Source of the DNA: Deltaproteobacteria bacterium
GTDB lineage: Bacteria; Desulfobacterota; Desulfobulbia; Desulfobulbales; Desulfobulbaceae
Direction of reading: 5' to 3'
DNA length: 37,887 nt
Assembly (NCBI GenBank): GCA_024280455.1
Contig: JAJRQC010000173.1
Span: 1-37,887 of the forward strand
Shown: in pieces, positions 657 through 33,311 of the stretch
How the letters are laid out: every line of letters begins with the position of its first letter
How positions within the stretch are numbered: the first letter of the stretch is position 1
Position numbers and translations under genes: made by a program
The notes under the pieces: model-generated
Told to the model about the DNA's origin: nothing
Databases searched by the model: none
What the model saw: the letters and a program-made list of their open reading frames with translations, nothing else

Positions 657-944
657 TCAACGTGGCATGTGACAGAGTGACAGCATCGTGAAAAGGATTT
701 CCAGCAAGCCAGACAGGAAACAGTGACCTCGGCTTCGGTGAATTACCAGAGCCTGAGGTTTGTCGCTCAATCCGAATTTTTTATTCCCTCGACAAGAGGG
801 CAGGCAAAACGCAGACAATTACCTAACCGAGGGCGTCACTGAATTCTGACGGAAAAAGGAGAAAAGAGTGGTTCGATCATCAGTTATTCCTTCATGATCG
901 ATCGCCCTGAAGATAACAACCCAGCAGCCGACAGAGGAGGATGT

Positions 945-4266: not shown

Positions 4267-4274
4267 GAGATACC

Positions 4275-4715: not shown

Positions 4716-4718
4716 GAT

Positions 4719-10062: not shown

Positions 10063-10079
10063 AAAATTTTAATAAAGAA

Positions 10080-10107
10080 CCGGGAGAGGTTTCACAACCA
10101 CTCCCGG
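10080..10107 (-). terminator. Intercistronic hairpin between large subunit and protease genes
   Basis: CCGGGAG (10080-10086) pairs with CTCCCGG (10101-10107), and inside it GGTT pairs with AACC around a TCAC loop. On the minus strand it lies between the large-subunit stop and the protease start and is followed by TTCTTTATT, a weak T-rich tract. It could be a partial terminator or an mRNA-stabilising hairpin that sets different levels for structural and maturation proteins. Confidence 0.5.
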
Positions 10108-10156
10108 TAAAAAAAGTAGTGTAAGGCCGAACATCGAAACAATGCAGGCCGCTTAT

Positions 10157-11863
10157 TTAAAGAACCTTGACCGTGGAAAACTCTTTTCCCTGCGGGTCAA
10201 GCATATGAACAGCACAGGCCATGCAGGGATCAAAAGAATGAATGGTTCTGAGAACCTCCAAGGGTTTTTCCGGATCTGCTATCGGGTTACCAATCAGGCA
10301 ACGTTCATAATAGCCTGGTTCATCGTTTGTGCCCATTGGTCCGGCAAGCCATGTTGAAGGCACCACTGCCTGGTAATTTCTAATTATCCCGTTTTCTATT
10401 ACTATCCAATGGGAAAGAGTTCCCCGGGGCGCTTCATGCATCCCTACGCCTTTCGCCTCTCCTTCTGGAAAGTGCGGTTCATTAAACGTAGTATAATCAC
10501 CGGAATTGATATTATTAATCAGAGCGTCCCATTGTTGAGTCATTGCATCGTGTACAACTGCGGCCCTGATACTCCTGGCAATATGTCGTCCCATTGTGGA
10601 AGGAAGAATATCAATTTCATGTCGGGTTGAGCCGATAGAGTTAATCTGATCAAGCATCCACCGGGTATACTGCAGAGCCGGTTTATGCCGTGCAGCATTC
10701 ATCGCAAGGACGGATGCGACAGGGCCGACTTCAGCTGGTTCATTCAGGAACGATGGGGACTTCACCCATGAATATTTTCCTTGCGGATCCTTCTTGACAC
10801 TAAACTCCGGGTTTGTCTCTTCCACATAGGGATGACGTGTCCAGTCGCCTGCGTAGAAAGAATGTTTAACGCTTTCTTTGACGTTATCTGAAAAAAACGG
10901 ATCATGGAAGGTACTTATACGTCGGAAATCGTCTTCTTCACCAAGTTTCAGATAACCTCCAGGCATGGCAAACATGGTCCCCTTGTCATCCATAGGCATT
11001 TCCATGACGGACAGATATGTCCCATTGCCTTTGCCGTAACTGCACCATTCCGGATACATTGCAGCAATCGCAGCGACATCGACCATGTAAACCTGATGTA
11101 TAAAATTACGAACTTCATCCATCAGTGTCTTAATGTAAAACAGTCTCTCCATGGTCAAAGTGGCCGGACTGTCAAGATTGATGGGATTGGCAACACCCCC
11201 GACAGCAAGATTTTGAATATGCGGTGTTTTAGAACCAAGTATCGTCACGACTTTGTTTATTTTCCGTTGATACTCCAGAGCTTGAAAGTAGTGGGTCGCG
11301 GCAATCAGGTTTACCTCCGGCTCCAGTTGCATGGCAGGGTGCCCCCAATACCCACTGGAAAACGGTCCCAGCTGCCCGGATTCGATAAGTCCTTTCAGCT
11401 TGTCCTGGGTTAATTTAAAGTCCTGGTAACTATTATCCTTCCAGGGCGAAAGCTGCTGGGCAAGACCGGCAGCCTTTCTGGGATCGGCTTTCATTGCCGC
11501 AGATGCGATATCTACCCAGTCTACCGCAGACAATATATAAAAATGTATTATGTTATCGGCAAGACAATGTGCACCAACAATCATGTTGCGGATATATTGG
11601 GCATTTACAGGAACCTCCATGTTCAGTGCATTTTCAACCGCCCTGACCGAAGCCATGGCATGCACTGTGGTGCACACTCCGCAGATACGCTGGGCTATCA
11701 GCCATGCTTCCCGAGGATCACGTCCCTTAAGGACGGTTTCGATACCTCTCCACATTGTTCCTATAGAACGAGCATTTACAACCTGGCCCTCTTCGATTTC
11801 ACATTCTATACGAAGATGTCCCTCTATACGGGTAATCGGATCAATTACAATCTGTTCAGACAT
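10157..11863 (-). CDS. hybC: Periplasmic [NiFe]-hydrogenase large subunit, group 1 (HybC-like)
   Basis: Catalytic subunit of a membrane-attached uptake hydrogenase, 568 aa. The first nickel motif is RICGVCTTVHAM (C61, C64) and the second is DPCMACAVH (C547, C550). All four ligands are cysteine. After His553 a 15-residue tail, MLDPQGKEFSTVKVL, follows and should be cut off by the endopeptidase encoded next. There is no signal peptide: the protein should be co-exported with its Tat-bearing small subunit. It sits 11 bases after the membrane-anchor gene. Confidence 0.96.
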   Translation of the reverse strand: MSEQIVIDPITRIEGHLRIECEIEEGQVVNARSIGTMWRGIETVLKGRDPREAWLIAQRICGVCTTVHAMASVRAVENALNMEVPVNAQYIRNMIVGAHCLADNIIHFYILSAVDWVDIASAAMKADPRKAAGLAQQLSPWKDNSYQDFKLTQDKLKGLIESGQLGPFSSGYWGHPAMQLEPEVNLIAATHYFQALEYQRKINKVVTILGSKTPHIQNLAVGGVANPINLDSPATLTMERLFYIKTLMDEVRNFIHQVYMVDVAAIAAMYPEWCSYGKGNGTYLSVMEMPMDDKGTMFAMPGGYLKLGEEDDFRRISTFHDPFFSDNVKESVKHSFYAGDWTRHPYVEETNPEFSVKKDPQGKYSWVKSPSFLNEPAEVGPVASVLAMNAARHKPALQYTRWMLDQINSIGSTRHEIDILPSTMGRHIARSIRAAVVHDAMTQQWDALINNINSGDYTTFNEPHFPEGEAKGVGMHEAPRGTLSHWIVIENGIIRNYQAVVPSTWLAGPMGTNDEPGYYERCLIGNPIADPEKPLEVLRTIHSFDPCMACAVHMLDPQGKEFSTVKVL

Positions 11864-11874
11864 TTATTTACTCC

Positions 11875-13023
11875 TTACGGGTTGGATTCAACGGGTTTAT
11901 GAACTTCAAAGACCGGAAATATTTTGACAAATAGAGTGTACGCTGCAATTTCCATGGCAATAAGGCCATAAGTGATCACCTGCTCACCCACTGAAGGGAA
12001 ATATTTCCATCCGGTTCCCGGGTCAAATCCGATGATATAGGTGTTGAAACGGAACAGCGAGCCGCCAAGCAGAATTGCAACAGCGGCAATAAAAAGGGCT
12101 CTTGGATTTGAGCGATTGCTGGCGGAAGATAAAATAAACAGACCAATCAGCAGCAGTAAATTCTCAAGCAGGAACATATTGCCCAGGAAACTACCGGAAA
12201 ACGCATGCCCCATCTCGCCACGCATGAAAATGTTCTGGAAGCGAATTACCAAGTAAAAACCAAGAATCCAGGTCATGATACTGGAGATCTTGGAAAACAT
12301 TGACGTCTCATCTCCAAGGTCATACACGCGGGAAGAAATCGTTCCCTCAAAAATGACCATGGCAAATCCCATGAAGAGTGCTGTTAAGAGGAAGAGGAGG
12401 GGGAGGGAACTGGTATGCCAGAGAGGATCCAATTTGAATCCGGCCATCAGCATCATGGTGCCCAGTGAAGACTGATGCATGGTTGGAAGCAAAACGCCAA
12501 GGGCAATCAAGGCAAAAACAACTCTGTTTAGAATTTTACCAAAATTCTTCAGTTGCCATTTCTCAACAAAGGCAGGAGAAAACTCAAGCCAGAGAACAAA
12601 GATATACGTCCCTATACACATTGCGACCTCGAACATGACCGAGTGGAAATTCATCTGCCATGGCAGGTACAGGTTATAGGCATTAAGATAACGGCCGATA
12701 TCAAGAAAGACCGAGACACCTGCCAGAGTGTAGCCGAACATAGAGGCCAGCAGGGCCGGTCGTACCAGAGGATGGAATTCTCCCTTATTAAGGACATAAA
12801 CCATCAGTGCCATCACATAACCACCGCAGGCAAATGCCGAACCAACAACAACATCATAAGCAATCCAGATCCCCCAGGGGAATCCGTCATTCAAATTTGC
12901 TATTGATCCGATTCCAAAGATAAACCGTTTTGCAGCAAAATAGATGAAGAAACCTGTTATCATGAGACAGATCATAAAAGTGGGCGTAAATATTCTGCCA
13001 CCTAATGGCTTGGCTTTACTCAT
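11875..13023 (-). CDS. hybB: Hydrogenase membrane subunit (HybB/NrfD family)
   Basis: Integral membrane protein of 382 aa, with about ten hydrophobic helices, of the NrfD/PsrC/HybB family. In Hyb hydrogenases it passes electrons from the FeS protein HybA to the quinone pool. Its start codon overlaps the hybA stop as ATGA. The family carries no haem, in contrast to HyaC-type cytochrome b anchors, so the enzyme should be of the Hyb (group 1c-like) type. Confidence 0.93.
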   Translation of the reverse strand: MSKAKPLGGRIFTPTFMICLMITGFFIYFAAKRFIFGIGSIANLNDGFPWGIWIAYDVVVGSAFACGGYVMALMVYVLNKGEFHPLVRPALLASMFGYTLAGVSVFLDIGRYLNAYNLYLPWQMNFHSVMFEVAMCIGTYIFVLWLEFSPAFVEKWQLKNFGKILNRVVFALIALGVLLPTMHQSSLGTMMLMAGFKLDPLWHTSSLPLLFLLTALFMGFAMVIFEGTISSRVYDLGDETSMFSKISSIMTWILGFYLVIRFQNIFMRGEMGHAFSGSFLGNMFLLENLLLLIGLFILSSASNRSNPRALFIAAVAILLGGSLFRFNTYIIGFDPGTGWKYFPSVGEQVITYGLIAMEIAAYTLFVKIFPVFEVHKPVESNP

Positions 13024-14018
13024 GACACCCCTCCTTCCGAATCGGTTCTTTTTTGATCATTCTCCGCCTCTTCCGTATTTTTATTCTTTTTTACCATGAA
13101 AACGAGACCGGCTAGAACAACCAGCGGGTACACCATACCTTTATAGATAGCATATTGAATACCACTGGCCATGGAGACAAAAGATTCTTTTGGAAAGGCG
13201 GGCAGGCCAAATTTTTCATACTTGATGGCTGACATATACATTACCTGGGTACCGCCCAACTCCTCTCTGCCATAGACATGATGGACATATTTCGCAGCCT
13301 TATATTGATGAAACTTGCCGGAGTTCAGCGAAGAAACTGGAAAGTCATACACCTTTCCAGATTTCATCTGCAGCCGTCTTCTTGTTTCAATAATCAGATC
13401 AGAGACCTTGCCGAAGAGGGAAGCTCCAGTAGGGCAGGCTGAACAACATGCGGAGATTCCACCCTTTTCCACCAGATGACTGCAGAGCTGACACTTTACA
13501 ATCTCCGGGTAGGGAGAATCCCATTCAAATTTAGGGATATTATAAGGGCAGGCGACCTGGCAGTAACGACAACCGATACAGGCATCTTTGTTGTAGGAAA
13601 CAATTCCTGTGGATTCGTCCTTGATTAATGCTGAAACAGGGCATGCCGTCACGCAGGAAGGGTCAATACAGTGCAGACACTGCCTTTTGATAAAGGCATA
13701 ACCATCTGTTTCAGAGTCCTTTTCCTCCCCCGTGCCATTGGAGAATTTTTTTATTATATTCAGGGTGTCCGAAGAAAGATCCTGCGGATTGTCCCACACT
13801 TCTTGATCACCCGTGAAGTCAGGCTGCATGTTATTGGCCCGTTTGCAGGCAGGCATACAGGCGTTACAACCTACGCATAACGTCGAGTCATAAAGAATTC
13901 CCACCGCATCTGGTGGTAAAGCCTGCACAGTTCTTGCCTGGCTGGAATCAACATCCAGCGAAAGCAGGGCCAGGCTACCGGCGGCACCTTTAAGAAAGTC
14001 ACGCCTCTTTATTTTCAT
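13020..14018 (-). CDS. hybA: Tat-exported four-cluster FeS subunit (HybA-like)
   Basis: Periplasmic electron carrier between the hydrogenase small subunit and HybB. The 332-aa protein begins with a Tat signal (KRRDFLKGAAG). It has four FeS motifs: CVGCNACMPAC, CLHCIDPSCVTACP, CIGCRYCQVACP, and CQLC with CCSACPTGA. It ends with a hydrophobic anchor helix (GMVYPLVVLAGLVFMV) and a charged tail. The start at 14018 is set by AGGAGG at 14025-14030; an upstream in-frame ATG at 14060 lies inside hybO. It overlaps hybO by 20 bases. Confidence 0.94.
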   Translation of the reverse strand: MKIKRRDFLKGAAGSLALLSLDVDSSQARTVQALPPDAVGILYDSTLCVGCNACMPACKRANNMQPDFTGDQEVWDNPQDLSSDTLNIIKKFSNGTGEEKDSETDGYAFIKRQCLHCIDPSCVTACPVSALIKDESTGIVSYNKDACIGCRYCQVACPYNIPKFEWDSPYPEIVKCQLCSHLVEKGGISACCSACPTGASLFGKVSDLIIETRRRLQMKSGKVYDFPVSSLNSGKFHQYKAAKYVHHVYGREELGGTQVMYMSAIKYEKFGLPAFPKESFVSMASGIQYAIYKGMVYPLVVLAGLVFMVKKNKNTEEAENDQKRTDSEGGVS

Positions 14019-15123
14019 GTTTATCCTCCTTTCCGCTGAGTTTAGCAGTAAAAACAGCACCTGCTCCGATTGCCACTCCGGCTGCTCCGGCCATCAAGGC
14101 TGCCGATTTGACTGACACGCCTTCGCCACGTTCAAGGGTAATCGGGGCATGAGCGGCAGCTGGAGTTGTGTGTATTACCGGGCTCGTCGTAAATTGTGGA
14201 ATATTAAAACCAACACCTTTTTCAGCGCATCCAAAGCAGGGATGGCCGATACCGACAGGCCAGCAACCCGAACCGGCATCGCCGAATTGCATGGTGGAGC
14301 AGTTCGCATAGGTCACTGGGCCCTTGCAACCAAGGTAATAGAGGCAGTACCCCTGTCGATGACCTTCATCGCCAAAACTTCTGGCAAATCTGCCGTTATC
14401 AAAATGTGGCCTACGTTCACAGTGTTCATGAATTAGGCGTCCATATGCAAATTTTGGTCTGTTTTCGTCATCCAGAACGGGCATTCTGTTAAATGTCAGG
14501 TAATGAATAATGGTGGAAAGAAGATTGTAGGGATTCGGTGGGCACCCGGGCAAGGAAATTACTTTCTTCTCCGGTAACACCTCTTGCACACCAACGCAAC
14601 CCGTCGGATTAGGATCCATAGCTGCCACGCCGCCCCATGAGGCACAGGAGCCGATAGCTATGACGGCACCGGCTTTTGCACCGATTTCCTTGACGGTCTG
14701 TACGAAATTTTTGCCGGCGATCCGACAGAAAACGCCACCGTCTTTCATAGGTATGGCTCCCTCTATAACCAGTATGAATTTTCCGAAATTTTCTTCGACC
14801 GCTTTATGGAGGGCTTCTTCAGCTTGATGGCCGGCACCTGCCGAAACCGTTTCATGGAAATCCAGGGATATGAGGTCAAAAATCAGTTTTTCAAGGGTCG
14901 GATGCTCCGATCTGAGCAATGACATGCTGCAACCTGTACATTCCGACCCGTGAAGCCAGATAACAGGTGGACGGGTTGGACTGGTTATAGCATGAGCAAT
15001 TTTCGGCACCACTGTTCCCGGCAGGGCCATTGTCGCGGCCACAGCGGAGCAGAGTTTCATGAAGTCCCGACGAGAAACATTACCCAGCCGCTTCTGGACT
15101 TTTTCAAATTCTTCCTGTTTCAT
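13999..15123 (-). CDS. hybO: Periplasmic [NiFe]-hydrogenase small subunit (HybO-like)
   Basis: Small subunit of the uptake hydrogenase, 374 aa. It begins with a Tat signal (SRRDFMKLCS) followed by a hydrophobic stretch. Proximal-cluster cysteines are in GSECTGCS, GSCASWGG and PGCPPNP. Medial and distal cluster ligands are in HEHCERR, YYLGCKG, NCSTMQFGD, SGCWPVG and HPCFGCAEKG. A C-terminal helix rich in Ala and Gly (LMAGAAGVAIGAGAVF) should anchor it to the membrane. It is the first structural gene of the hyb set and lies 122 bases after the haem-motif lipoprotein gene. Confidence 0.95.
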   Translation of the reverse strand: MKQEEFEKVQKRLGNVSRRDFMKLCSAVAATMALPGTVVPKIAHAITSPTRPPVIWLHGSECTGCSMSLLRSEHPTLEKLIFDLISLDFHETVSAGAGHQAEEALHKAVEENFGKFILVIEGAIPMKDGGVFCRIAGKNFVQTVKEIGAKAGAVIAIGSCASWGGVAAMDPNPTGCVGVQEVLPEKKVISLPGCPPNPYNLLSTIIHYLTFNRMPVLDDENRPKFAYGRLIHEHCERRPHFDNGRFARSFGDEGHRQGYCLYYLGCKGPVTYANCSTMQFGDAGSGCWPVGIGHPCFGCAEKGVGFNIPQFTTSPVIHTTPAAAHAPITLERGEGVSVKSAALMAGAAGVAIGAGAVFTAKLSGKEDKHENKEA

Positions 15124-15245
15124 ATTTTTCCCCCTGGTTTAAATTCATGCTCTTGGCTGGAGCACTGTGCATGTAGACGGAATTCTGTTATTTCAACGAG
15201 CCTGATTGTTCCTCCGTCCCCTTGGCGTTCAAGCCGTTTGTCACA

Positions 15246-15566
15246 TTATTGATCCGTTATTTTTTCAGGCGAGTTCTTCTCCTGCTCGCGTCTTGTGCAG
15301 GTTGCATTAAAAGAATCTGATTTTGCCAGGCACTTGGCGATTATTTCCTTTTGTTCCCTAGAAACAGAAGCATTCATTCTGTTCATTTGGTCTATGATTC
15401 TACGCCAGTATTTTCTGCTCTTGTCGTTTTGGTCGCAGGTCTTGTTCAGAGAGTGACAACTGGTACATTCTGATTGAATACTTTTGATGCAGCTTTCTCC
15501 CGTCGAACACCCTGTAAGTCCAGGCAGTAAAAGAAGAACAATAAAAAAAATACGCACAGCACTCAT
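15246..15566 (-). CDS. Small lipoprotein with one CxxCH haem motif
   Basis: A predicted 106-aa periplasmic lipoprotein. A hydrophobic signal ends in the lipobox LTGC, so the mature protein starts at that cysteine. A single c-type haem motif, CTSCH, follows, with more cysteines nearby (ESC, KTC, AKC, ATC). I chose ATG 15566 because GGGAGGG lies 6 bases upstream; two earlier in-frame ATGs lack this. It lies between hypE and hybO on the same strand, so it may donate or accept electrons for the hydrogenase. I do not recognise the family. Confidence 0.7.
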   Translation of the reverse strand: MSAVRIFFIVLLLLPGLTGCSTGESCIKSIQSECTSCHSLNKTCDQNDKSRKYWRRIIDQMNRMNASVSREQKEIIAKCLAKSDSFNATCTRREQEKNSPEKITDQ

Positions 15567-15617
15567 GGTCACCCTCCCCATTGTTTGACTTTTCACAAGA
15601 TTATCTTCATGCCCAAA

Positions 15618-16628
15618 TCAGCAAATCCTTGGTAATGGTTCCCCTGACAGCGGTTCGACCAGTCGGTGACCGCCTGAAGTTGTAGTCAACACTACCCGGC
15701 CCGGGTATTTTTTTGTTACCTTGCCGATAATACAGCTATCCACGCCTTCGCTCACGGAACACATTGCTGCAAGGATTGCCTCAGCTTCTTCAGGTGCGGT
15801 AATTACCAGGCATTTGCCCTCGTTGGCAAGATACAGAGGGTCAAGCCCCATCAGCTCACAGGCGGCACGTACCTCGCCGTGCATGGGGATAGCCTGTTCA
15901 TCGATCTCCATGCACAGGTTGGTGGATTTTGCGATTTCACTGAGAGTGGTGCCAAGGCCGCCCCGGGTCGGATCACGCATGGTGTGCACAGCACCGGGTG
16001 CTTCTGCCATGATTTTCTTCACTAGAAAATGGAGCGGCCTGGTATCGCTCTTCAGGTTTCCGTCAACCTGTAGGCTGGCACGGCTGGTGAGAATGGTGAT
16101 TCCGTGGTCGGCAAGTGTTCCGGAAAGGAGAATAATATCACCGGATCGTGCCTGCCTGGCAGTCACATTGATGTCCACTTCGACAATTCCGATACCTGAA
16201 GTGTTGATGAAAACTTTATCAGCTTTCCCCTTTGGGACTACTTTTGTGTCACCTGTCACCACAGGGACTCCGGCGTAATCGCAGGCATTGGCAATGCTTT
16301 TAATGATCTCTTCCAGCTCTTCAACAGCAAACCCTTCTTCAAGTATAAGTCCCAGGCTCAAGCATATCGGCCTGGCTCCCCGCATGGCCAGATCATTAAT
16401 GGTACCGTTCACTGCAAGTTCACCAATATTACCACCGGGGAAAAAAATTGGATCCACCACATAACTATCCGTAGAAAAGGCGAGCTGGCCATGTTCAGGC
16501 GGTAAAACAGCAGCATCTTCCAACTGGTTCAGGACAGGATTTTTTAAATACTTGAGAAACAGAGAACCTATCAGGTTTTGACTGACCAGACCGCCACTTC
16601 CATGGTCAAGTAAAATATATTTGTCCAT
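15618..16628 (-). CDS. hypE: Carbamoyl dehydratase HypE
   Basis: HypE converts the carbamoyl group received from HypF into the thiocyanate that becomes the CN ligands of the NiFe site. The 336-aa protein has the AIRS/PurM fold signatures HGSGG at the start, EDAAVL, the FSTDSYVVDP loop and DPTRGGLGTTL. It ends PRIC, with the C-terminal cysteine that carries the carbamoyl or cyanide group, so it looks fully functional. It is on the same strand as hypD and hypC, with one unrelated membrane gene between. Confidence 0.96.
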   Translation of the reverse strand: MDKYILLDHGSGGLVSQNLIGSLFLKYLKNPVLNQLEDAAVLPPEHGQLAFSTDSYVVDPIFFPGGNIGELAVNGTINDLAMRGARPICLSLGLILEEGFAVEELEEIIKSIANACDYAGVPVVTGDTKVVPKGKADKVFINTSGIGIVEVDINVTARQARSGDIILLSGTLADHGITILTSRASLQVDGNLKSDTRPLHFLVKKIMAEAPGAVHTMRDPTRGGLGTTLSEIAKSTNLCMEIDEQAIPMHGEVRAACELMGLDPLYLANEGKCLVITAPEEAEAILAAMCSVSEGVDSCIIGKVTKKYPGRVVLTTTSGGHRLVEPLSGEPLPRIC

Positions 16629-16664
16629 ATATGTTTAGGCTCCTTTTGTTGAGTAAAGAATGTC

Positions 16665-17513
16665 TCATTTGCCAGGGAACAAACGATTGCTGATAAGGGT
16701 AAGGAGAATAGCAAATGAGATGGCCGCTACTCCCATGAGAACATTATAATAGGCCGGTGCCACCAGGGCCAGGCGGATAAACATGGTTGCCAGGGCATAG
16801 CCGGAATTACGAAATATTGAAAAAAATGAAGGGAGGAAACATTGGGATATAAGAACAATTAAAATATCTGTGATAATAAGCAGGGTGTAAAAAAAATGAA
16901 AAAAATCACTATGCCCCTGACCAGATACTAAACGGTAAATGTTGTCCCCTCCCATGACAACGAAGCTTCCCAATAAAAACAGAGAGACAGCTTTTTTAGC
17001 AGACACAAAACGGTACAGGTCTCCAGTCTGCTCTCCGGTTTCTGCTGAATGTTTTTGAACTATATAATAGGCACCGAGCAGACCGAAAATAAACAGGGAG
17101 CCAAAACCATCGGACATGATCCTCAGTATCGCATCTTCATTTCCAGTAAAGTTGATCGGTTCAGGCAAGTGTGAAAGCTCTTTGAAGGCATCACGAAGCA
17201 GGATAAGGGCAAGCAGTTCAAACTGCTTGCCAACAGCCCGGGAAAAAGAGCAGGGTAAAATAAAAATCAGGCTCAGTACTTCAAGGATAAGTATAATTGT
17301 AAAGGCAGTTCCAATGGCATGAAAATGATTCGTTGGAATAAACGTTGCCAGCGACTGTGGCAATAACTGTTGCCGGTTTAATTCTATCAACAGGAGATTG
17401 ATCAGGAATACACAAACCAGGAAGAAAGAAATTTTTTTATGAACCCGCTCATGCTCCCAAAACATGTGCAGGGTGTCAAAGCGATATGTAAACTGTTGAT
17501 AGAATAAATCCAT
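16665..17513 (-). CDS. Unrecognised multi-pass membrane protein between hypE and hypD
   Basis: A 282-aa protein with roughly seven hydrophobic stretches (around residues 27-45, 66-92, 133-150, 172-190, 206-228, 235-255 and 258-275). It starts MDLFYQQFTYRFDTLHMFWE; the ATG at 17513 lies 36 bases after the hypD stop, and the stop is 36 bases before hypE, so co-transcription is likely. Features include an HERVHKK cluster before the first helix and a polar loop (ELSHLPEPINFTGNEDA). I see no nickel-permease motif such as H-x4-D-H. A role in hydrogenase maturation or metal or electron supply is only suggested by position. Confidence 0.75.
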   Translation of the reverse strand: MDLFYQQFTYRFDTLHMFWEHERVHKKISFFLVCVFLINLLLIELNRQQLLPQSLATFIPTNHFHAIGTAFTIILILEVLSLIFILPCSFSRAVGKQFELLALILLRDAFKELSHLPEPINFTGNEDAILRIMSDGFGSLFIFGLLGAYYIVQKHSAETGEQTGDLYRFVSAKKAVSLFLLGSFVVMGGDNIYRLVSGQGHSDFFHFFYTLLIITDILIVLISQCFLPSFFSIFRNSGYALATMFIRLALVAPAYYNVLMGVAAISFAILLTLISNRLFPGK

Positions 17514-17549
17514 ACTTGTTTTCCTGCTGAACAGTACCTTGGTTGAAAA

Positions 17550-18638
17550 TCAGACCAGGCCGCCATAGCGATGCCAGGCGGCGCAGGTCCCCTCGCTGGA
17601 TACCATGCAGGGGCCCACCGGCGAGCCGGGAGTACACCGCCTGCCAAAAAGCGGACAGTCCCTGGGGCCGCAGATTCCTTTTAAAATTTCGCCGCAGCGG
17701 CATCCTTTTGGTTCTGCTGATTCAACCGGGGTAATATTCAATCTTTTGGTTGCGTCAAAATGTTCATATGCTTTCCGCAGCCCAAGGCCGCTTTTTTCGA
17801 TTACGCCAAGGCCACGCCACCGGCAGTCGACCGGAGTGAAAATTTTTTCAACAAGACCACGTGCCTTTACATTGCCTTTGCGAGTAACCACTCGACCGTA
17901 ACAGTTTTCAATTGTCGGTCGTTTTCCCTGAATCTGCCTGACCAGGGAAACAATGGCTCGCAGGATATCCGTTGGTTCAAATCCGGCCACAGCACAGGCC
18001 AGTCCATATTTATCGACCAGAAATTGAAAGCTGTCGGAACCGGAAATAATACTGACATGGCCAGGACAGAGCAGGCCATCCACCTGCAGCTCAGGGTCCT
18101 GCATCAAAGCGTCAAGAGGCGGCGGCATGACCTTGTTGGCCGGAAAAATAAAGAAATTATCAATACCCTGCCGCTCCGCTTCCAGCACCGTGGCCGCAAT
18201 GGTCGGAGTGGTGGTCTCAAAGCCGACACTTAGAAAAACGACCAGCCGGTACGGCCTCTCTTTTGCCAGAACAAGTGCATCCATTGGAGAATAGACAATC
18301 TCCACCTTTGCACCTGCCGCCCGGGCCTCGGCCAGTGAACCACGTGCTCCGGGCACACGGATCATGTCACCAAAGGTGGTTACCGTTACCTCCGGTCGGG
18401 ATGCCAATTCGATAAAACCATCGATAACGCCCGATGGCGTAACACAGACCGGACAGCCGGGTCCGGAGATCAGCTGAACCTTATCCGGCAGCATATCGCG
18501 AAGTCCATGCCGGAATATAGACATGGTGTGGGTGCCGCAAACCTCCATAACGCGAACCGGATCGGTAGTGATTCGGTGGAGCGTATTGCACAGTTTGTCA
18601 ACCAGTTCACGGCTGCGGTACTCGTCTACGTATTTCAT
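17550..18638 (-). CDS. hypD: Hydrogenase maturation protein HypD
   Basis: FeS scaffold that, with HypC, assembles the Fe(CN)2CO unit. The 362-aa protein has the conserved EVCGTHTMSIFRHG and GPGCPVCVTP motifs. A C-terminal cysteine set (CRCGEILKG, DCPLFG, CTPGSP, GPCMVS, GTCAAW) binds the [4Fe-4S] cluster. It overlaps the hypC stop by 4 bases, so the two partners are translationally coupled. No damage is visible. Confidence 0.96.
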   Translation of the reverse strand: MKYVDEYRSRELVDKLCNTLHRITTDPVRVMEVCGTHTMSIFRHGLRDMLPDKVQLISGPGCPVCVTPSGVIDGFIELASRPEVTVTTFGDMIRVPGARGSLAEARAAGAKVEIVYSPMDALVLAKERPYRLVVFLSVGFETTTPTIAATVLEAERQGIDNFFIFPANKVMPPPLDALMQDPELQVDGLLCPGHVSIISGSDSFQFLVDKYGLACAVAGFEPTDILRAIVSLVRQIQGKRPTIENCYGRVVTRKGNVKARGLVEKIFTPVDCRWRGLGVIEKSGLGLRKAYEHFDATKRLNITPVESAEPKGCRCGEILKGICGPRDCPLFGRRCTPGSPVGPCMVSSEGTCAAWHRYGGLV

Positions 18639-18907
18639 GTGAACTTTCCGCCGGGTTCCTCTTCTATGTCATTGGCAATCTCCCGTAGAAGCTGCAGGCT
18701 TTTTTCAGCATTTTCAGTATCCAGGCAGTTAATGGCAAATCCGGCATGGATAATCAGGTACTCACCGATCTCGGGCATACGATCCACCAGGTCAAGGCGA
18801 ATCTCTTTTTTCATTCCGTCTGCATTAACCACTGCGATAATTGGATTAAGAAGGCTGTCACCGCTGCCCTTGATTTCAACAACCTGCATGGGTATGGCAA
18901 GACACAT
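18635..18907 (-). CDS. hypC: Hydrogenase assembly chaperone HypC
   Basis: Small chaperone that carries the iron unit and docks to the large-subunit precursor. The 90-aa protein starts MCLAIPMQVVEI; Cys2 is the essential iron ligand. Its 5' end overlaps the out-of-frame tail of the damaged hypF gene (18876-18907). No second hypC/hybG is in the window, so this copy may serve all three hydrogenases. Confidence 0.96.
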   Translation of the reverse strand: MCLAIPMQVVEIKGSGDSLLNPIIAVVNADGMKKEIRLDLVDRMPEIGEYLIIHAGFAINCLDTENAEKSLQLLREIANDIEEEPGGKFT

Positions 18908-20079
18908 TTTCTTTTCCCTCTGTTAACTTTTTGTTTACGACATACAGCTGCCCCAGGGCAATGCCGCCATCGTTGATCGGGACCAGTTCACCGGTGTACG
19001 TGGTGCAGCCGTTTTCTTTTAAACGACGACGAAGTAGTCGCAGGGGCAATTTGTTCTGAGAACAACCCCCCTCCAAGTAAAACGGTATTGGTCGCAGGGT
19101 ATTTCACAAAAAAACTGAGTAAAATCTTGATGGTCGAGCGCACAAGCCAGAGGTGGAAGTAGAGGGCAATCTCAGTATTGGAGACACCTTTCCGCAGGTC
19201 TTCCAGAAGCCAGTAGATAAACGGTCGATAATCCAACAACAAGTTGTCGTTGTCCTGCTTGATGGTGGCAAAATAGCGACTTGAAACCGGGATAAAATCT
19301 GCCCTCTCATATGCATCCCAGGCAAGAGTCTCAAGTTCCATGGCCACCTGTCCTTCAAAGTCTACCTCCAGGCGGAGGCCAAGAAGAGCGGCCACTCCAT
19401 CAAAGAGCCGTCCGACGCTTGATGTTTGTGGCGTGTTAATACCAAGCACCATCATCTGGCGGATCCCGAAAAGCAATTCGCCTGGTGTCTTGCAAAGAGC
19501 TTCCGGCAATAAGGAGGTGTTTGATATATCTATCCCGGTGCCGGCAAGCAGAGCAATTTCCAATCGCCAGATTTCCCGGCCAGCGAGGTCACCACCTGGT
19601 ACCTGAAACTGTGCCAGGTGACCAAGTCGTTCATAGTCGGCCCCTTTCACATGGAGAAATTCCCCTCCCCAGATGGTGCCGTCGTCTCCAAGGCCCGCTC
19701 CGTCAAAAAGAACTGCGATTCCTTCCTCAAGGCCATGTTCCGCCATAATGGCAGCAGCATCAGGCGAGATGACGGTAGTGTCCCGCCCATTAGAATCACT
19801 TACCCCGATGATAAACCTGTCCGGTAAGTGTTGCTCATCTGTCTGGCGGATCTCCAGACTGTCAACTGTTGCCAGGGTCGGAGGAGCACGCCTGGTCGTT
19901 TCTATGAAACTGTCTAGGTCACCGGTGCGGCCGAAAAGATTTATTTCAACCCCTTGTGTGGAGTTAACCACTACACCGTTTAAGTCAAGACGGTTTGCCA
20001 GGTTATACACAAAAGGTCTGAAGCCGACCCCCTGCACAATGCCCTTCACGGTGACAGCTATTTGTATTTTTTCCGGCAT
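18876..20079 (-). pseudogene. hypF: hypF with internal deletion and a frameshift
   Basis: HypF normally has about 750 residues: acylphosphatase, two zinc fingers, YrdC and Kae1-like domains. Here the acylphosphatase part (GIVQGVGFRPFVYNLA) runs to VISPDAA and joins at once, in frame, to AIMAEHGLEEGIAVLFDG of the Kae1-like domain. Both zinc fingers, the YrdC domain and the HHHAH motif are absent, a loss of some 370 residues. Near 19063-19072 a run of six G on the coding strand shifts the frame: upstream reads LLGGG, and downstream family sequence (CSQNKLPLRLLRRRL, ELVPINDGGIALGQ) continues in another frame to the stop at 18876. It should be inactive as a carbamoyltransferase unless this is an assembly error. 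Confidence 0.88.
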
Positions 20080-20113
20080 TGTAGTGAGTTCTCTGTGAGC
20101 TGACCTGACCAGA

Positions 20114-21535
20114 TTAAAAATAGATACTTTCCGGCATGTCGATATCACGGTTACATATCCTGTCGGAGATAATCGAATCTACAGTTCGCCTGGCCTCAAT
20201 TATCATGTCATTTATTCCGATACCACCCCATCCAGAACCACATATATGTAATCCGGGATTTTCAACCATAACCCGCTTCTGCCATTCTAAAAGCCCCAGG
20301 TAACCATCCTCAAGCTGAGGGATCCCTGAACCGGCATGTATGATTTTGGAAAATACTGGATCACCCGAGATGGGGAGAAGTTGTGAAATGTCACGCAGTA
20401 CGTTGGCGAGTAATTTCCCATCATCCATTCTTACTCGTTCGGGATGACGTCGCCCACCGACCAGCACCTCAAGAAGAACATGACCTCTGGGCGATCGACC
20501 GGGAAACATGTTGTTCGAAAACATGGCGCCTAGCGCAAACCGTTTTTCCTGCTCCGGCGCGAGATAGCCGAAGCCAGCCGGAAATTGGCCCGTATCGGGG
20601 TAGCCGAGGGCAACATTTACTATCCGTGCTGTCGGTAAAGCTGTTATGGGAGAGGGGGGTATCTGGTAATTTTTATTTATAATATGCAGAGCAGCATTCA
20701 CCGGAAGGGCAAAAACAAGATTATTGCAATAATTAACGTTATCCGGCCCGATAACTTTCCAAAGTTTGCCGTGCTTGCAAAAGGATCTTACTTCGTAGTC
20801 GGAACGCAAATCGCAGTGTTCTGTATTGTTGAGCAACTGGCCAGTCAATGTTAAAGTAAGTTGTTCCATGCCTTCTGGAAAATTCTGCATGGCCGGCGGT
20901 TTTTTCGACTTCTGTTTATCGCAAACTGTAAACAACTCCTTTTTGAAGAGCCCCATCAAAACTGAACCGTGCTGCCGCTCCAGATGCCTTAGCCCCGGCA
21001 TAATTGCGTCAATTTTGATTCGTTCCGGATCTCCTGAAAAAGTTCCTGTCAGCGCAGCGTCAACCAGTGGTAATATACCGGTACCAAAGCGATATTCAGC
21101 CCAGTTTTTTACTGATGGCTCACCGGAGAGTGGTTTCTTCCACAAGTCGGCAAGAAGCCTGAATTTCGCCAGTGGACCTAATATCTTTGTTCTCAGGCAG
21201 GGGAATGGTTCCAGGGGAATGCGATGAAGCCTGTTTTCTTTGCAGATATATCGTGAAAACAATTCAAGCGGCGCCTGCTGAGCAACATGATCCAGGCCAA
21301 TATCCTTGAGCAGATTTATACTTTCCGGACAGTTATCAAGAAAACCATGTGGGCCGCCCTCAATCAGGAATCCTTCCTCCCGATAGGTGCGCACGGCCCC
21401 GCCGACCCGCTTCTCTTTTTCCAGCAGAAGTGTCCGGTGGTTCGGATTCTGCCGGAAAAGAAACCATGCAAGGCTTAAACCACTCAGGCCGGCCCCGATG
21501 ATAATTGTGTTGTAGGTCTTATACGTTTTATTCAT
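20114..21535 (-). CDS. hemY: Protoporphyrinogen/coproporphyrinogen oxidase (HemY/HemG-type flavoprotein)
   Basis: FAD-dependent oxidase of late haem synthesis. The 473-aa protein starts with a Rossmann FAD fold (TIIIGAGLSGLSLAWFL, then an acidic E in LLLEKEKRVGG). It ends with the family's GSGWGGIGINDMIIEARRT FAD motif. Which porphyrinogen it uses cannot be told from sequence alone. It leads the hyp/hyb run on the minus strand, with 35 bases to hypF. The link to hydrogenases may be haem supply for c-type cytochromes. An in-frame ATG at 21541 is an alternative start; 21535 has an AGGA 5 bases upstream. Confidence 0.9.
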   Translation of the reverse strand: MNKTYKTYNTIIIGAGLSGLSLAWFLFRQNPNHRTLLLEKEKRVGGAVRTYREEGFLIEGGPHGFLDNCPESINLLKDIGLDHVAQQAPLELFSRYICKENRLHRIPLEPFPCLRTKILGPLAKFRLLADLWKKPLSGEPSVKNWAEYRFGTGILPLVDAALTGTFSGDPERIKIDAIMPGLRHLERQHGSVLMGLFKKELFTVCDKQKSKKPPAMQNFPEGMEQLTLTLTGQLLNNTEHCDLRSDYEVRSFCKHGKLWKVIGPDNVNYCNNLVFALPVNAALHIINKNYQIPPSPITALPTARIVNVALGYPDTGQFPAGFGYLAPEQEKRFALGAMFSNNMFPGRSPRGHVLLEVLVGGRRHPERVRMDDGKLLANVLRDISQLLPISGDPVFSKIIHAGSGIPQLEDGYLGLLEWQKRVMVENPGLHICGSGWGGIGINDMIIEARRTVDSIISDRICNRDIDMPESIYF

Positions 21536-23846: not shown

Positions 23847-23847
23847 T

Positions 23848-27365: not shown

Positions 27366-28310
27366 ATGGCCATACGTATAGCTGAAGAATGGTTGCACTC
27401 CTGCTCAGGGTGTGAAATTGCAATTCTGAATACCGGTGAAGCTCTACTCGAGCTGCTTAACAAAGTCAATTTTGTTCATATTCCGATTCTTATTGATCAT
27501 AAATACTACGGTCAGCTTGGCGATGGCGAGGAGCTTACGATTCCGGAAGCTGAGATTGGTCTTATTTCAGGAGGTGTTGCCAATGAAGAGCACATTGAGG
27601 TACTCCTGGAGATGCGAAAAAAATGTAAGGTGCTGATTGCTCTCGGCCCCTGTGCAACCCATGGCGGACTGCCCTCTCTGATCAACTTATGGGGCATGGA
27701 AGAGGGGTTGAAGGAGTATTACTCTACTCCGACCACTGATATATGCACGGTGCCCGACGAGATTGTGCCTAGGCCCCTTGACCATGTCTACGCAGTGGAT
27801 GAAAAGGTGGAAGTTGATATGCTCCTGCCCGGCTGCCCCCCCAATCCGGCATTGATCATTGAGGTGCTGACCGCACTGATTGAGGGCAGGGATCCGGCCA
27901 TCCCCGCCAAATCCGTTTGCGATACCTGTCCCACCCAGCGTGAAGGAAAGGGAGGGGTGACAAAGGTCCGCCGCTTTGTACAAAATGCCCAGTATGACCC
28001 TGATAAACCCATTGAAGAGATGCGCTGTCTGCTGGAGCAGGGGCTTCTGTGTATGGGGCCGGTGACTGTTGCCGGGTGCGCCTCCGGGGCTGGCCGTGGG
28101 GCACCTTCATGCATCAGCGCCCGGGTTCCCTGCAGGGGATGTTTTGGCCCTGTACGGCGGGAAGGAAATCAGATGCTGGACATGATGAACGCTCTGGCAA
28201 GTAATGGAATTGATTATAAATCTGTTGTCGATCGGCGATCTTTACTACGTTTTTCCGGTTCACACGGCCTGCAGCGGAAGCTGCCGGTCCGGAAAACGAC
28301 GGGGGAATAA
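27366..28310 (+). CDS. mvhG: Group 3 [NiFe(Se)]-hydrogenase small subunit (MvhG/VhuG-like)
   Basis: Cytoplasmic small subunit, 314 aa, without a signal peptide. It carries FeS ligands in HSCSGCEIAIL, LGPCATHGG, PGCPPNP, CDTCPTQ, and the C-terminal set AGCASGAG, PSCISARVPCRGCFGP. It passes electrons from the NiFeSe site to MvhD. An AGGAGG lies 7 bases before the ATG. All its ligands are cysteine; no UGA interrupts it. Confidence 0.94.
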   Translation: MAIRIAEEWLHSCSGCEIAILNTGEALLELLNKVNFVHIPILIDHKYYGQLGDGEELTIPEAEIGLISGGVANEEHIEVLLEMRKKCKVLIALGPCATHGGLPSLINLWGMEEGLKEYYSTPTTDICTVPDEIVPRPLDHVYAVDEKVEVDMLLPGCPPNPALIIEVLTALIEGRDPAIPAKSVCDTCPTQREGKGGVTKVRRFVQNAQYDPDKPIEEMRCLLEQGLLCMGPVTVAGCASGAGRGAPSCISARVPCRGCFGPVRREGNQMLDMMNALASNGIDYKSVVDRRSLLRFSGSHGLQRKLPVRKTTGE

Positions 28311-28313
28311 AAA

Positions 28314-29762
28314 ATGGGCAAGGTAATTAATATACAACCGGTGACACGGATCGAGGGGCATGCCAGAATTGCTATTCATCTTGATGATAACGGCAACGTG
28401 AACGATGCTTTTCTCCATATCATGTCCTTGCGGGGATTTGAAAAATTTATCGAGGGCCGGCCTGCTGAAGAGGTCCCTCGTATAGTGAACCGCATCTGTG
28501 GAATCTGTCCCTGGATGCATCATCTTGCCTCCAATAAGGCGGTTGATGGCTGCTTTGATGTCATCCCGACCCCGACCGGGCATAAACTGCGTGAGATGTG
28601 CCAGATCATGGCCCATATCAATGACAAGATTCTCCACTTTTTCTTTCTGGCCGCACCCGACTTTGTCTTAGGGCCGGATAGTGACTATTCGGTACGGAAT
28701 GTTATCGGGATAGTCAAAGAGGCTCCTGACCTTGCGGCCCGGGTTGTAAAGATGCGGCAGCTTGGTCAGATGATGCTGGAGCGTTTTGCAGGTAAGGCGA
28801 TCCATCCCGTTGCCGGTGTGGTAGGCGGGTTTGCAAAGCCCATGACTGAGGAGGAGCGTAAAGGTTTGCTGGAAGACACCAGGACACTGCTTGACTTTGC
28901 CCTCTTCAGTATGGATTATGCCAGAAATTCAGTTTTTCCCAAGTATGAAGATATTATTGCAAAACTGGGAACTATCACGACCGGTTTTCTTGGAACTGTA
29001 GACGAGATGGGATCTTTGCAGCTCTATGACGGCGATCTGCGACTGATGAAGGCGGATGGAACCATGACTGATTTCCCGGTCAGCGCGTATGATCAGTATT
29101 TGTCCGAGCATGTTGAATCCTGGACGTATGGTAAAATGCCCTATGCGAAATGCTGGGGCGAAGGTTTTTCCATGGATCTGGATACACCTAAAGGTGTGTA
29201 TCGGGCAAACACCCTTGCCCGAATCAATGTGGCTGATCAGATTTCAACCCCTCATGCCCAGGAAGAGCTGGAAGTGTTTAGAGAAAAATTCGGGCGACCC
29301 GCCCAGGGGACACTTCTTTATCACTGGGCCCGGCTGATTGAACTGGTTTATGTCTGTGAACGGACTATTGAGCTGCTTGAGCAGGACGATATTACAGGCG
29401 CAGATATCCGGGCCATGGTCGAGCCGAAGGCTGGACGTGGAATCGGTGCAGTGGAAGCACCCCGAGGAACGCTCATCCATGACTACACCACTGATGAGAA
29501 TGGCTGTATTATCAAAGCCAATATGATAGTCGGCACAACACACAACATCGCTCCTATGAATATGAGCGTAAAAGAAGCAGCCGTCAGTCTGATCCATGAT
29601 GGTGTCTATGACGAGGGTTTGCTCAACAAGGTGGAAATGGCAGTGCGCGCCTACGACCCCTGAATGTCGTGTGCCACACATCGCCTGGATGGCGGTATGT
29701 CTTTGACGGTCACCATGGTAGATCATACGGGAAAAGCTATAGAAACACTGACCAACACCTAG
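28314..29762 (+). CDS. mvhA: Group 3 [NiFeSe]-hydrogenase large subunit (MvhA with Sec)
   Basis: Catalytic subunit, 482 aa read through UGA 29661-29663 (Sec450). The N-terminal motif is RICGICPWMHH (C62, C65). The C-terminal motif is AYDP-U-MSCATH, where Sec takes the place of the first cysteine, the terminal nickel ligand replaced in known [NiFeSe] hydrogenases. After His a tail of about 26 residues (RLDGGMSLTVTM...) runs to TAG at 29760-29762 and should be removed by the protease at 21840. If UGA were a stop, the enzyme would lack two nickel ligands and be dead. In methanogens the equivalent Sec lies on the separate peptide VhuU; here it is in one chain. Confidence 0.95.
29678..29700 (+). 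promoter_or_regulatory. SECIS-like stem-loop of mvhA
   Basis: ACAT plus CGCC (29678-29685) pairs with GGCG and, after a two-base bulge, ATGT (29691-29700). The TGGAT loop at 29686-29690 is identical to that of mvhD. The loop starts 22 nt after the UGA. Confidence 0.72.
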
Positions 29763-30022: not shown

Positions 30023-30068
30023 ATTTTTTTGTACATCTCGTGTTTTTTTGTTTTGCTTACATGCAACC

Positions 30069-32312
30069 ATGACAAAACTACTGCTACGAACTTTTTTCCC
30101 TTTCCTCGTCTGGTTTAAAGGGTACTCCAGGGAAACCCTGAAACATGACTGTATAGCCGGGGTTACAGTGGCCCTGATTTTAATACCCCAGTCTATGGCC
30201 TATGCCCAGCTTGCCGGCCTGCCTGCATACTATGGGCTGTACGCATCATTTCTCCCGCCCATGGTTGCAGCCCTGTTCGGCTCCAGCCGCAGGCTGGCAA
30301 CTGGTCCGGTGGCTGTTGTATCCATGATGACGGCAGCCAGCCTTGAACCATTGGCTATTGCCGGAAGCGAGGCCTACATTGCCTATGCCATCCTGCTGGC
30401 TTTCTGCGTAGGTGTATTTCAATTCATGCTTGGCGCTTTACGGCTTGGCGTTATTGTCAACCTCCTCTCTCACCCCGTTATCACAGGATTCATTAATGCG
30501 GCAGCCCTTATTATCGCATCCAGCCAGCTCTCAAAATTATTTGGAGTCCACGTAGACAAGGCGGAGCATTATTACGAAACCATGGAGCGGGTTTTCAGTG
30601 CAGCTTTTCACTTTACCCATTGGCCGACTTTTTTCATCGGAATGCTGGCTCTTATTATAATGATTGGCTGCAAACGTTGGAAGCCGGGCCTGCCCTATGT
30701 TCTTTTCGCGGTTATCCTCACAACTCTTTTTTCATGGCTTACAGGGTATGAAAATAACAGATATGTCACGGTAGATGATATAAAAGTAGCTGGACTCAAG
30801 ACAATAATAAATGAGTTGAATTCCAACCTTGATCATATCCTGCAAACGGTTTCCGTTCGAGCCATCATTACAGAGGATCCATCCGCCCCGTTTGATGATT
30901 CTCACGTCAAAGGAACTCAAGAAGTCTGCGGCAGCTGTCATATCAGCCGGGATGTAGAACTTGGACAGCTGAAAAATGACACCCGGGTTAAAAATAAAGA
31001 AGATATTCCTCTGAAAAAAATGCTCGAACTCCATCTGATGGCGGGTGTCCTTGATCAGTATCTTGCCGAAGAAAAAGAGCGTGCTATAGCTCTCAGAAAA
31101 CAGCTTCGTTCCATACAACTGGTTTCAGTCATGAATACTGACGGTTCACTCGTTTATATGCAACCGGGAGATATCTCAACTGAAAAACGGGCTGAAAAAA
31201 ACACCTGGCGGATCGGTATCGGAAACAATGCTCTGACCGTAGACAATATCCTGCTCATTGGAGGCGGCGAAGTCGTGGGAACAGTCCCCAAAGGGCTCCC
31301 GAAATTTTCCGTACCCAGCTTTGACCTTTCAATCATAAAACAACTTATTCTTTCTGCAATTGTCATTTCCATGCTCGGCTTTATGGAGGCAATTTCCATT
31401 GCCAAGGATATGGCCGCCCGCAGCGGCAACCGTCTTGATCCCAACCAGGAGCTCATCGGACAGGGGCTGGCCAACATTGCAGGTTCCTTCAGTGGCAGTT
31501 ATCCGACTTCAGGTTCCTTTTCCAGGTCAGCTGTTAATTCCCAGGCCGGTGCTGTAACCGGGATGTCCTCTGTTTTTACCAGTTTTTCAGTGGTCATTGC
31601 TCTGCTTTTCTGTACTCCACTGCTTTATTATCTTCCCCAATCAGTCCTGGCTGCCATTATCATGATGGCCGTGATGGGACTGCTGAATATTCGCGATATC
31701 AAACACGCCTTTGTTGTTGACCGCGCCGACGGCATGATCAGTATTATCACCTTTGTTGCCACGATGTTTTTTGCCCCTCATCTGGATAAAGGTATCACGC
31801 TTGGCGTGATTCTCTCGGCCGGCATATTCTTTTATCGAAAAATGCGGCCGGTGCTTGCCGAACTTTCCTTATGGACAGACGGCCATTACAGAAACGCAAG
31901 GACTTTCAATATTAAACAGTGTAAGTACCTCGCAGTTCTTCGATTTGACGGGCCACTTTTTTACGGTAATATCAGTTACCTTGAAGATGAGGTACTGAAA
32001 ATTATCCGTAGCCAGCCGGAGCTGAAAATCATTCATTTCAAATGCAATGGTATAAACGAAATCGACACATCCGGCGAACATGCCCTCACCCTCCTTGTTG
32101 AACGGCTTCAATCTACAGGGTACAAGGTCTACTTCAGCGGAGTAAAAGAGCATATCATTGATATTCTTTATCGCACCGGGCTGTTGGAAGAGATTGGAGA
32201 GGATCATATCTTTCCAACTCTAGCGGATGCCATGAAAGTCATCTGGCCGATGGCCCACGAGGTGTCGGATGAAGAAGTCTGTCCGCTGAAAAAAGTGCTT
32301 TTGAATGATTGA
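30069..32312 (+). CDS. SulP-family anion transporter with a CxxCH-bearing insert
   Basis: Membrane transporter of the SulP/SLC26 family, 747 aa. The N-terminus has the family signature IPQSMAYAQLAGLPAYYGLY, and the core continues with GFMEAISIAKDMAARSGNR and a C-terminal STAS domain (~620-730). Between SWLTGYE (~225) and VVGTVPKGLP (~400), where relatives have a loop of some 20 residues, lies an insert of about 170 residues. It contains CGSCH (287-291), a c-type haem attachment motif, and a stretch resembling a ligand-binding or sensor domain. By SulP topology this loop is extracytoplasmic. Substrate (sulfate, bicarbonate or other) is unknown. ATG 30069 has a poor ribosome binding site. Confidence 0.88.
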   Translation: MTKLLLRTFFPFLVWFKGYSRETLKHDCIAGVTVALILIPQSMAYAQLAGLPAYYGLYASFLPPMVAALFGSSRRLATGPVAVVSMMTAASLEPLAIAGSEAYIAYAILLAFCVGVFQFMLGALRLGVIVNLLSHPVITGFINAAALIIASSQLSKLFGVHVDKAEHYYETMERVFSAAFHFTHWPTFFIGMLALIIMIGCKRWKPGLPYVLFAVILTTLFSWLTGYENNRYVTVDDIKVAGLKTIINELNSNLDHILQTVSVRAIITEDPSAPFDDSHVKGTQEVCGSCHISRDVELGQLKNDTRVKNKEDIPLKKMLELHLMAGVLDQYLAEEKERAIALRKQLRSIQLVSVMNTDGSLVYMQPGDISTEKRAEKNTWRIGIGNNALTVDNILLIGGGEVVGTVPKGLPKFSVPSFDLSIIKQLILSAIVISMLGFMEAISIAKDMAARSGNRLDPNQELIGQGLANIAGSFSGSYPTSGSFSRSAVNSQAGAVTGMSSVFTSFSVVIALLFCTPLLYYLPQSVLAAIIMMAVMGLLNIRDIKHAFVVDRADGMISIITFVATMFFAPHLDKGITLGVILSAGIFFYRKMRPVLAELSLWTDGHYRNARTFNIKQCKYLAVLRFDGPLFYGNISYLEDEVLKIIRSQPELKIIHFKCNGINEIDTSGEHALTLLVERLQSTGYKVYFSGVKEHIIDILYRTGLLEEIGEDHIFPTLADAMKVIWPMAHEVSDEEVCPLKKVLLND

Positions 32313-32560: not shown

Positions 32561-32600
32561 CTTTTTCTCTCCACTTCAACCTTAACACTTGGTAGGAAAA

Positions 32601-33311
32601 ATGTGTGATACATGCGGATGCCATATATCTGATGGTACAAACGAGAATATTGTTGAAGTTCATCAAAGTCTGCTGGCGGCTAACAGAGAACAGGCTGAAA
32701 AGAATCGGCATCATATCGAATCGATGGGGGCCGTTGCGATCAATATGATCTCAAGTCCCGGTTCGGGAAAGACCACCTTACTTGAACATACACTTGATCG
32801 GATAGGTGACAAACTGAAAATCGGCGTGATTGAAGGCGATATTGAAACGGAACGTGATGCCGACCGCATACGAAAAAAAGGGGTACCTGTGGTCCAGCTC
32901 ACTACCGGCGGAGCCTGTCATCTTGATGCACCGCTGGTTCACAAGGGATTACATGCCATTGAAGATCAGGCCGATGCTGGGAAGTTTGACCTTATCTTCA
33001 TCGAAAATGTCGGCAATCTGGTCTGCCCTGCCACCTTTGATCTGGGCGAACATGTCCGTATCATTCTGGTTTCGGTACCCGAGGGTTCGGATAAACCTGC
33101 AAAATATCCAACTACGTTTAATGGTGCCGACATCTTCATGATTACTAAGGTCGATCTCCTGTCTTACTTTGATTTTTCCGTTGAAGAGGCTGAAAAAGAG
33201 GCCTTGCGTTTAAATCCCGGGTTAAAAATCCTGCAGGTCGGTGCTCCATCAGGTCTGGGTATGGATGACTGGATTTTTTATCTCAAAGAACTCATCATTA
33301 AAGACAGGTAA
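32601..33311 (+). CDS. hypB: Hydrogenase nickel incorporation GTPase HypB
   Basis: GTPase that supplies nickel with HypA. The 236-aa protein has an N-terminal metal site MCDTCGCH, a P-loop SSPGSGKTTLLE, GDIETERDADRI, the metal-binding GGACHLDAPLV, IENVGNLVCPATFDLGE and the guanine motif TKVDLL. The start at MCDTCGCH is preferred over an in-frame codon four residues upstream. It has no His-rich nickel-storage stretch. It looks intact. Confidence 0.96.
   Translation: MCDTCGCHISDGTNENIVEVHQSLLAANREQAEKNRHHIESMGAVAINMISSPGSGKTTLLEHTLDRIGDKLKIGVIEGDIETERDADRIRKKGVPVVQLTTGGACHLDAPLVHKGLHAIEDQADAGKFDLIFIENVGNLVCPATFDLGEHVRIILVSVPEGSDKPAKYPTTFNGADIFMITKVDLLSYFDFSVEEAEKEALRLNPGLKILQVGAPSGLGMDDWIFYLKELIIKDR

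Follow-up and report, generated by a model that had tools for sequence, protein, structure and literature searches.

A SulP permease with a predicted periplasmic c-type haem in the linker between its gate and core domains, encoded in a hydrogenase island

The window, that is the whole stretch of 37,887 nucleotides that was analysed, is a hydrogenase island (Table 1). Its SulP gene is preceded by HdrA-MvhD-MvhG-MvhA and followed by genes for HypB, a CBS protein, a hexapeptide-repeat protein and PPK2, and a scan for promoters and terminators around it found no excess over shuffled sequences. The best start of the gene is the ATG at 30069 within a listed open reading frame of 809 aa (29883-32312; frame checked). 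The product matches the Pfam family Sulfate_transp (PF00916, E 1e-108) in two separate stretches and, at its C-terminus, the STAS domain (PF01740, E 2e-17), it scores 450 bits with the sulP model TIGR00815, for which the cut-off is 380, and its closest solved relative by sequence is SULTR4;1 (7lhv, E 7e-113). By these matches the protein is a SulP/SLC26 permease, and anion transport is predicted for it.

Table 1. Coordinates of the SulP gene, of its insert and candidate functional residues, and of the hydrogenase genes in the window.
Feature	Position	Strand	Basis
SulP/SLC26 anion permease with STAS domain, haem-type, 747 aa	30069..32312	+	PF00916, PF01740, TIGR00815
Insert between TM7 and TM8, residues 231-397	30759..31259	+	alignments; AlphaFold2 of insert
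CGSCH, haem c attachment motif (C287, C290, H291; residues 287-291)	30927..30941	+	invariant, 25/25 haem-type
His322 in LHLMAGVLDQY, candidate distal haem ligand	31032..31034	+	25/25 haem-type
Glu440 on TM8, equivalent of H+-coupling Glu347 of AtSULTR4;1	31386..31388	+	alignment; 25/25
Arg486, equivalent of substrate-stabilising Arg393 of AtSULTR4;1	31524..31526	+	alignment; 25/25
HypB, hydrogenase nickel-insertion GTPase, adjoining SulP	32589..33311	+	Pfam CobW/HypB/UreG
MvhG and MvhA, [NiFe] hydrogenase subunits, directly upstream of SulP	27366..29663	+	Pfam, NCBIfam
Periplasmic Hyb-type [NiFe] hydrogenase cluster: protease, large subunit, HybB, HybA, small subunit, mono-haem c ORF	9556..15596	-	NCBIfam, CxxCH scan
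HypE, HypD, 90-aa ORF in HypC position, HypF-like protein	15618..20148	-	NCBIfam; 90-aa ORF by synteny only
Ech-like complex-I-type cluster: proton-antiporter, NADHdh and 49-kDa-type subunits	894-6824		

Several of the surrounding genes have peculiarities of their own. Counted without its mono-haem c ORF, the Hyb-type cluster spans 9556-15123. This small ORF (15246-15596, minus strand), which lies beside the gene of the hydrogenase small subunit, has a lipobox-like start and a CTSCH motif and is weakly SorB-like (E 1.6e-6, below the cut-off); its counterparts at loci L074 and L033 likewise carry a CxxCH, and its product might accept electrons from the hydrogenase by means of a single haem. The frame of HdrA extends on the 5' side beyond the TTG listed as its start if an in-frame TGA is translated (23845-24126, context DCSMUIIAPK), and the protein probably contains selenocysteine; an unlisted MvhD-like ORF with one in-frame TGA, situated between HdrA and MvhG (26931-27353), probably encodes a selenoprotein MvhD. 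HypF is recognised only as a protein of 386 residues (18991-20148, minus strand) that matches acylphosphatase and the C-terminal part of the HypF model; it apparently has no central region and may represent a deletion or a degenerate copy. A second Hyb-type large subunit in the same genome (G000:C76:15791-17485) is 55% identical to that of the window and has an internal TAG.

Where in the permease is the additional sequence located? The SLC26 fold consists of a core domain (TM1-4 and TM8-11) and a gate domain (TM5-7 and TM12-14), which are joined by two linkers on the outside and one on the inside (PMC8298490). Since two of the linkers are outside, with the N-terminus and the STAS domain in the cytoplasm, the linker between TM7 and TM8, which harbours the insert, is placed outside. 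The topology rests on homology, because the AlphaFold2 model of the full-length protein (pLDDT 46) was unusable. Haem c is attached to proteins outside the cytoplasmic membrane, and thus motif and topology agree. The insert is therefore predicted with near certainty to face the periplasm as part of the extracellular core-gate linker, the side to which the sequence-only reading had also assigned it. In solved homologues the same linker comprises only a few residues; positions 225 and 397 of the profile align with residues 307 and 314 of prestin, which leaves about 165 residues as extra. The coordinates given earlier for the insert agree with those found here, and the earlier estimate of some 170 residues replacing a loop of about 20 was right for the insert and too large for the ordinary loop, which has rather 5-10 residues in the solved structure that was checked.

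Modelled alone by AlphaFold2, the insert of about 167 residues forms a helix (243-268), a flexible loop with the CxxCH, a second helix (315-347) and a small beta region; the mean pLDDT is 70, the helix pair is confident and the CxxCH loop stays below 50. No Pfam family matched the insert, a PDB search with the insert profile yielded nothing convincing (best E 0.019, to an unrelated-looking protein), and fold searches retrieved only generic helical hairpins (Foldseek best E 0.9; VIA-align Z up to 8.5). The sensor-like stretch that had been noticed in the insert belongs to a scaffold common to haem-less relatives, and the insert itself is not recognisable as a sensor domain. Two specific identities were considered and rejected. 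An extra transmembrane helix, as which the insertion of the SulP group Ci was read (PMC5840216), is at odds with the hydropathy, as no TM-like stretch was found in the insert (maximum KD19 0.98), and is not suggested by the insert model either. A Tll0287/Cache domain (PF11845) was not matched by any of seven insert sequences at E values up to 1; the same genome has seven PF11845/Tll0287-like domains, none of them at the SulP locus.

The CGSCH is the sole CxxCH of the SulP protein, and its earlier reading as a haem c motif is supported: each of 25 haem-type sequences, drawn from the families f1, f91 and f78, keeps a CxxCH. C287, C290, H291 and H322 are invariant throughout this set and are among just 12 invariant positions of an insert that otherwise diverges strongly, with a mean entropy of 1.89 bits as compared to 0.76 and 0.79 for the two membrane-domain halves and with identities to the window sequence of 23-59%. 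Seven different pairs of residues occupy the xx positions of the CxxCH, and synonymous changes are seen in the codons for its Cys and His. A chance occurrence of the motif is ruled out by its conservation in 25 of 25 sequences, the synonymous codon changes and the seven xx pairs. M324 is not invariant among the haem-type sequences and for this reason is the weaker candidate for a ligand than H322. The simplest reading of the conservation pattern is a bis-His c-type haem. Homologues of c-haem attachment proteins, both CcmF/CcmC-like (Ccm) and ResB/CcsA-like, are encoded in the genome, and judging from these features it is very probable that haem is actually bound and covalently attached at the CGSCH.

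The insert is not a peculiarity of this genome, a view ruled out by homologues in other genomes of the phylum. Whole-genome searches found its scaffold in many of these; among genome contigs a single-sequence query had no match, whereas a query with an alignment detected seven loci, among them loci of Desulfobulbus, an uncultured Desulfocapsa and 'Candidatus Desulfobulbus rimicarensis'. The homologues fall into two groups. In the haem-type sequences the insert has 159-173 residues, whereas 41 haem-less homologues in the phylum, one of which is a paralogue in the window's own genome (G000:C61, L002), have an insert of 131-140 residues devoid of CxxCH; the additional part in the haem-type is the loop between the two helices. 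In one alignment H322, within the motif LH..AG, occurs in 14 of 14 haem-type and in none of 41 haem-less sequences, whereas both groups have N251 and W380. As H322 and the length of the insert differ and N251 and W380 are shared, the haem features distinguish a clan on a common scaffold. A tree of the core columns, from which the insert was left out, separates the same numbers of haem-type and haem-less sequences (14 and 41) by a single branch with an SH-aLRT of 100; this tree is quick and unrooted, and gain and loss of the haem motif are indistinguishable in it. The sequence-only reading had held that orthologues with the same insert and no CxxCH would speak against it. Such proteins exist only as a separate clan with a shorter insert and without the second His, and all members of the window's clan keep the CxxCH. 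The haem-less relatives probably correspond to the SulP group Ci of Marietou et al. (2018).

The hydrogenase setting, pointed out before from the window alone, is confirmed and recurs in other genomes. Hydrogenase or hyp genes adjoin the SulP gene, within the fetched flanks, at 15 of 21 haem-type loci on contigs of more than 5.6 kb and at 0 of 21 haem-less loci (Fisher p 1e-6, for loci that are not phylogenetically independent). The haem-type SulP clusters of f1 and f91 contain HypB too. In f91 the genes stand on one strand in the order small subunit, large subunit, cytochrome b, SulP, HypF, HypC-like, HypD, HypE, protease, HypA-like and HypB, and in G012 the SulP gene lies between Mvh and a hydrogenase that is 82% identical to the f91 type and 55% to that of the window, indicating that different hydrogenases can stand beside the same kind of SulP. 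As gene orders and hydrogenase types differ, the linkage persists across rearranged clusters and different hydrogenases. A linked hydrogenase gene was not found at six haem-type loci (G206, G510, G492, G483, G002 and G007). On the level of whole genomes the co-occurrence gives no support, because hydrogenases are nearly universal in these groups with or without a haem-type SulP (37 of 42 genomes). Other neighbours recur as well. In f78 and G483 (L072, L112, L113) a conserved gene for a universal stress protein, not hydrogenase genes, adjoins the haem-type SulP. In G007 and G002 a divergent neighbour of SulP (L076:5033-5725 and L075:3930-4469) looks exported and has a C-terminal CIGCH, and is possibly a partner cytochrome. 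The CBS-domain protein and the hexapeptide-repeat protein of 472 residues (33390-35365) follow SulP-HypB in several f1 clusters, and homologues of the latter are also found near haem-less insert SulPs at L130 and L133.

Which anion could be transported? In AtSULTR4;1, Glu347 serves in H+ coupling and Arg393 in stabilising the substrate (PMC8298490), and the equivalent E440 and R486 are invariant in the 25 haem-type sequences and in the haem-less members too. Because SULTR4;1 is the closest solved relative and E440 and R486 are conserved, sulfate is the first guess, and from this homology it appears to be the likely substrate. The coupling Glu does not by itself fix the substrate, since other bacterial SulPs have an acidic residue at this position as well. 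The same haem protein could instead carry bicarbonate or another anion for H2-driven carbon fixation, given that bicarbonate or dicarboxylates are the substrates of most characterised bacterial SulPs (PMC5840216), that Mvh/Hdr and Ech-like clusters are also present in the window and that a relative from a vent was described as autotrophic (PMC7117923). However, the SulP scores far better to SULTR4;1 than to BicA or SLC26Dg, stays below the NCBIfam cut-offs for BicA and DauA and has a Glu where BicA has its Asp, and a substrate other than sulfate is accordingly regarded as unlikely. For one relative a sulfur-disproportionating lifestyle was proposed (PMC7117923), and in sulfur disproportionators net export of sulfate would also be possible.

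How might a haem act in such a transporter? In the best reading, to which we assign a probability of roughly 45%, the protein is an H+-coupled sulfate (anion) transporter, in which a periplasmic c-haem hairpin senses the redox state and gates transport. The SulP would move sulfate together with protons and would carry a single covalent c-type haem where a helical hairpin on the periplasmic side has its tip; the ligands of the iron would be H291 of the CGSCH and, on the helix that leads back, H322. This hairpin lies in the extracellular linker between gate (TM5-7) and core (TM8-11), two domains that shift relative to one another in the transport cycle. The haem could exchange electrons with periplasmic redox partners such as c-type cytochromes that are charged by the nearby [NiFe] hydrogenases, a change of its redox state could alter the hairpin and thereby favour or hinder the core-gate movement, and as an outcome sulfate transport would be matched to the supply of hydrogen. 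Every step beyond the binding of haem is one that we infer. We know of no SulP that was shown to be gated through the TM7-TM8 linker, and redox gating of transport by the haem is itself put forward tentatively, at somewhat less than an even chance; the fuller proposal of a secondary transporter that is gated by a covalent haem in its core-gate hinge, and in which sulfate transport is tied directly to the redox state of the periplasmic hydrogenase, is a shade more tentative still.

Alternatively, the haem may serve electron transfer or docking, such that the SulP is a membrane anchor through which electrons of the hydrogenase reach a periplasmic cytochrome and transport is unaffected. Invariant bis-His-like ligands suit electron transfer, the linkage to hydrogenases would be accounted for, and ORFs for mono-haem c proteins are found in the Hyb clusters of the window, L074 and L033, with another beside the SulP of G002 and G007. 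Nevertheless, the coupling Glu and the substrate Arg are fully conserved, neither a second redox centre nor a quinone site was recognised in the SulP, and haem-less relatives keep scaffold and transporter, all of which makes this role improbable. Still less probable is a haem that senses a ligand such as NO, CO or sulfide, the binding of which would displace H322, change transport and protect sulfate metabolism. A precedent is provided by the DUF3365/Tll0287 family of c-haem Cache domains, which arose when a CxxCH fragment was inserted into a scaffold already present and the signalling members of which behave as NO sensors (PMC12889525), but the insert is not recognised as Tll0287-like even though the genome has seven such domains, the second His is invariant and so points to six-coordination of the haem, an arrangement better suited to a redox change, and the recurrent neighbours are hydrogenases. 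A last alternative is that no haem is attached and that the CxxCH together with H322 serves to bind zinc or another metal, or to make a disulfide. Two Cys and two His could also hold zinc, yet this is very unlikely, as a periplasmic CxxCH is the standard attachment motif where c-haem attachment systems exist and its xx residues show the free variation known from cytochromes c.

Should the haem gate transport, a single protein would link electron flow to the movement of the terminal electron acceptor, and it would become testable by what means sulfate reducers adjust their uptake of sulfate to the hydrogen available, with the haem-less sister group as a natural control. The position in the core-gate linker would then mark a site at which the SLC26 fold might be switched by redox state. 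A literature search that lacked most subscription journals found no previous description of a c-type haem in an SLC26/SulP protein. A group of SulPs with a long insert is already described in sulfate reducers, namely group Ci (Marietou et al., 2018; PMC5840216), with about 710 residues and an insertion of about 90 residues relative to Rv1739c. The likeness lies in the insert within a SulP; haem or hydrogenase are never mentioned in that paper, and the insert of the window differs by having a CxxCH and H322 and no TM-like stretch. Group Ci proteins mostly have Ala or Ser at the first position of the PXYGLY motif, which reads AYYGLY in the SulP of the window. With AtSULTR4;1 (7lhv; PMC8298490) the protein shares the SLC26 fold of 14 TM helices with a STAS domain, the conserved coupling Glu and the substrate Arg, whereas AtSULTR4;1 has a short TM7-TM8 linker and no haem, and its Thr388 is Ser in all haem-type sequences. 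Outside the SulP family, the DUF3365/Tll0287 proteins are comparable in that a CxxCH fragment was acquired by an extracytoplasmic domain whose scaffold already existed (PMC12889525), but they have a Cache fold, are signalling or stand-alone proteins and show no sequence match to the SulP insert. The c-haem PAS sensors GSU0582 and GSU0935 and DcrA are chemotaxis receptors with a PAS-type fold, not transporters; they likewise hold a periplasmic c-haem domain between TM helices, for which sensing of redox state or ligands was proposed (PMC3460858).
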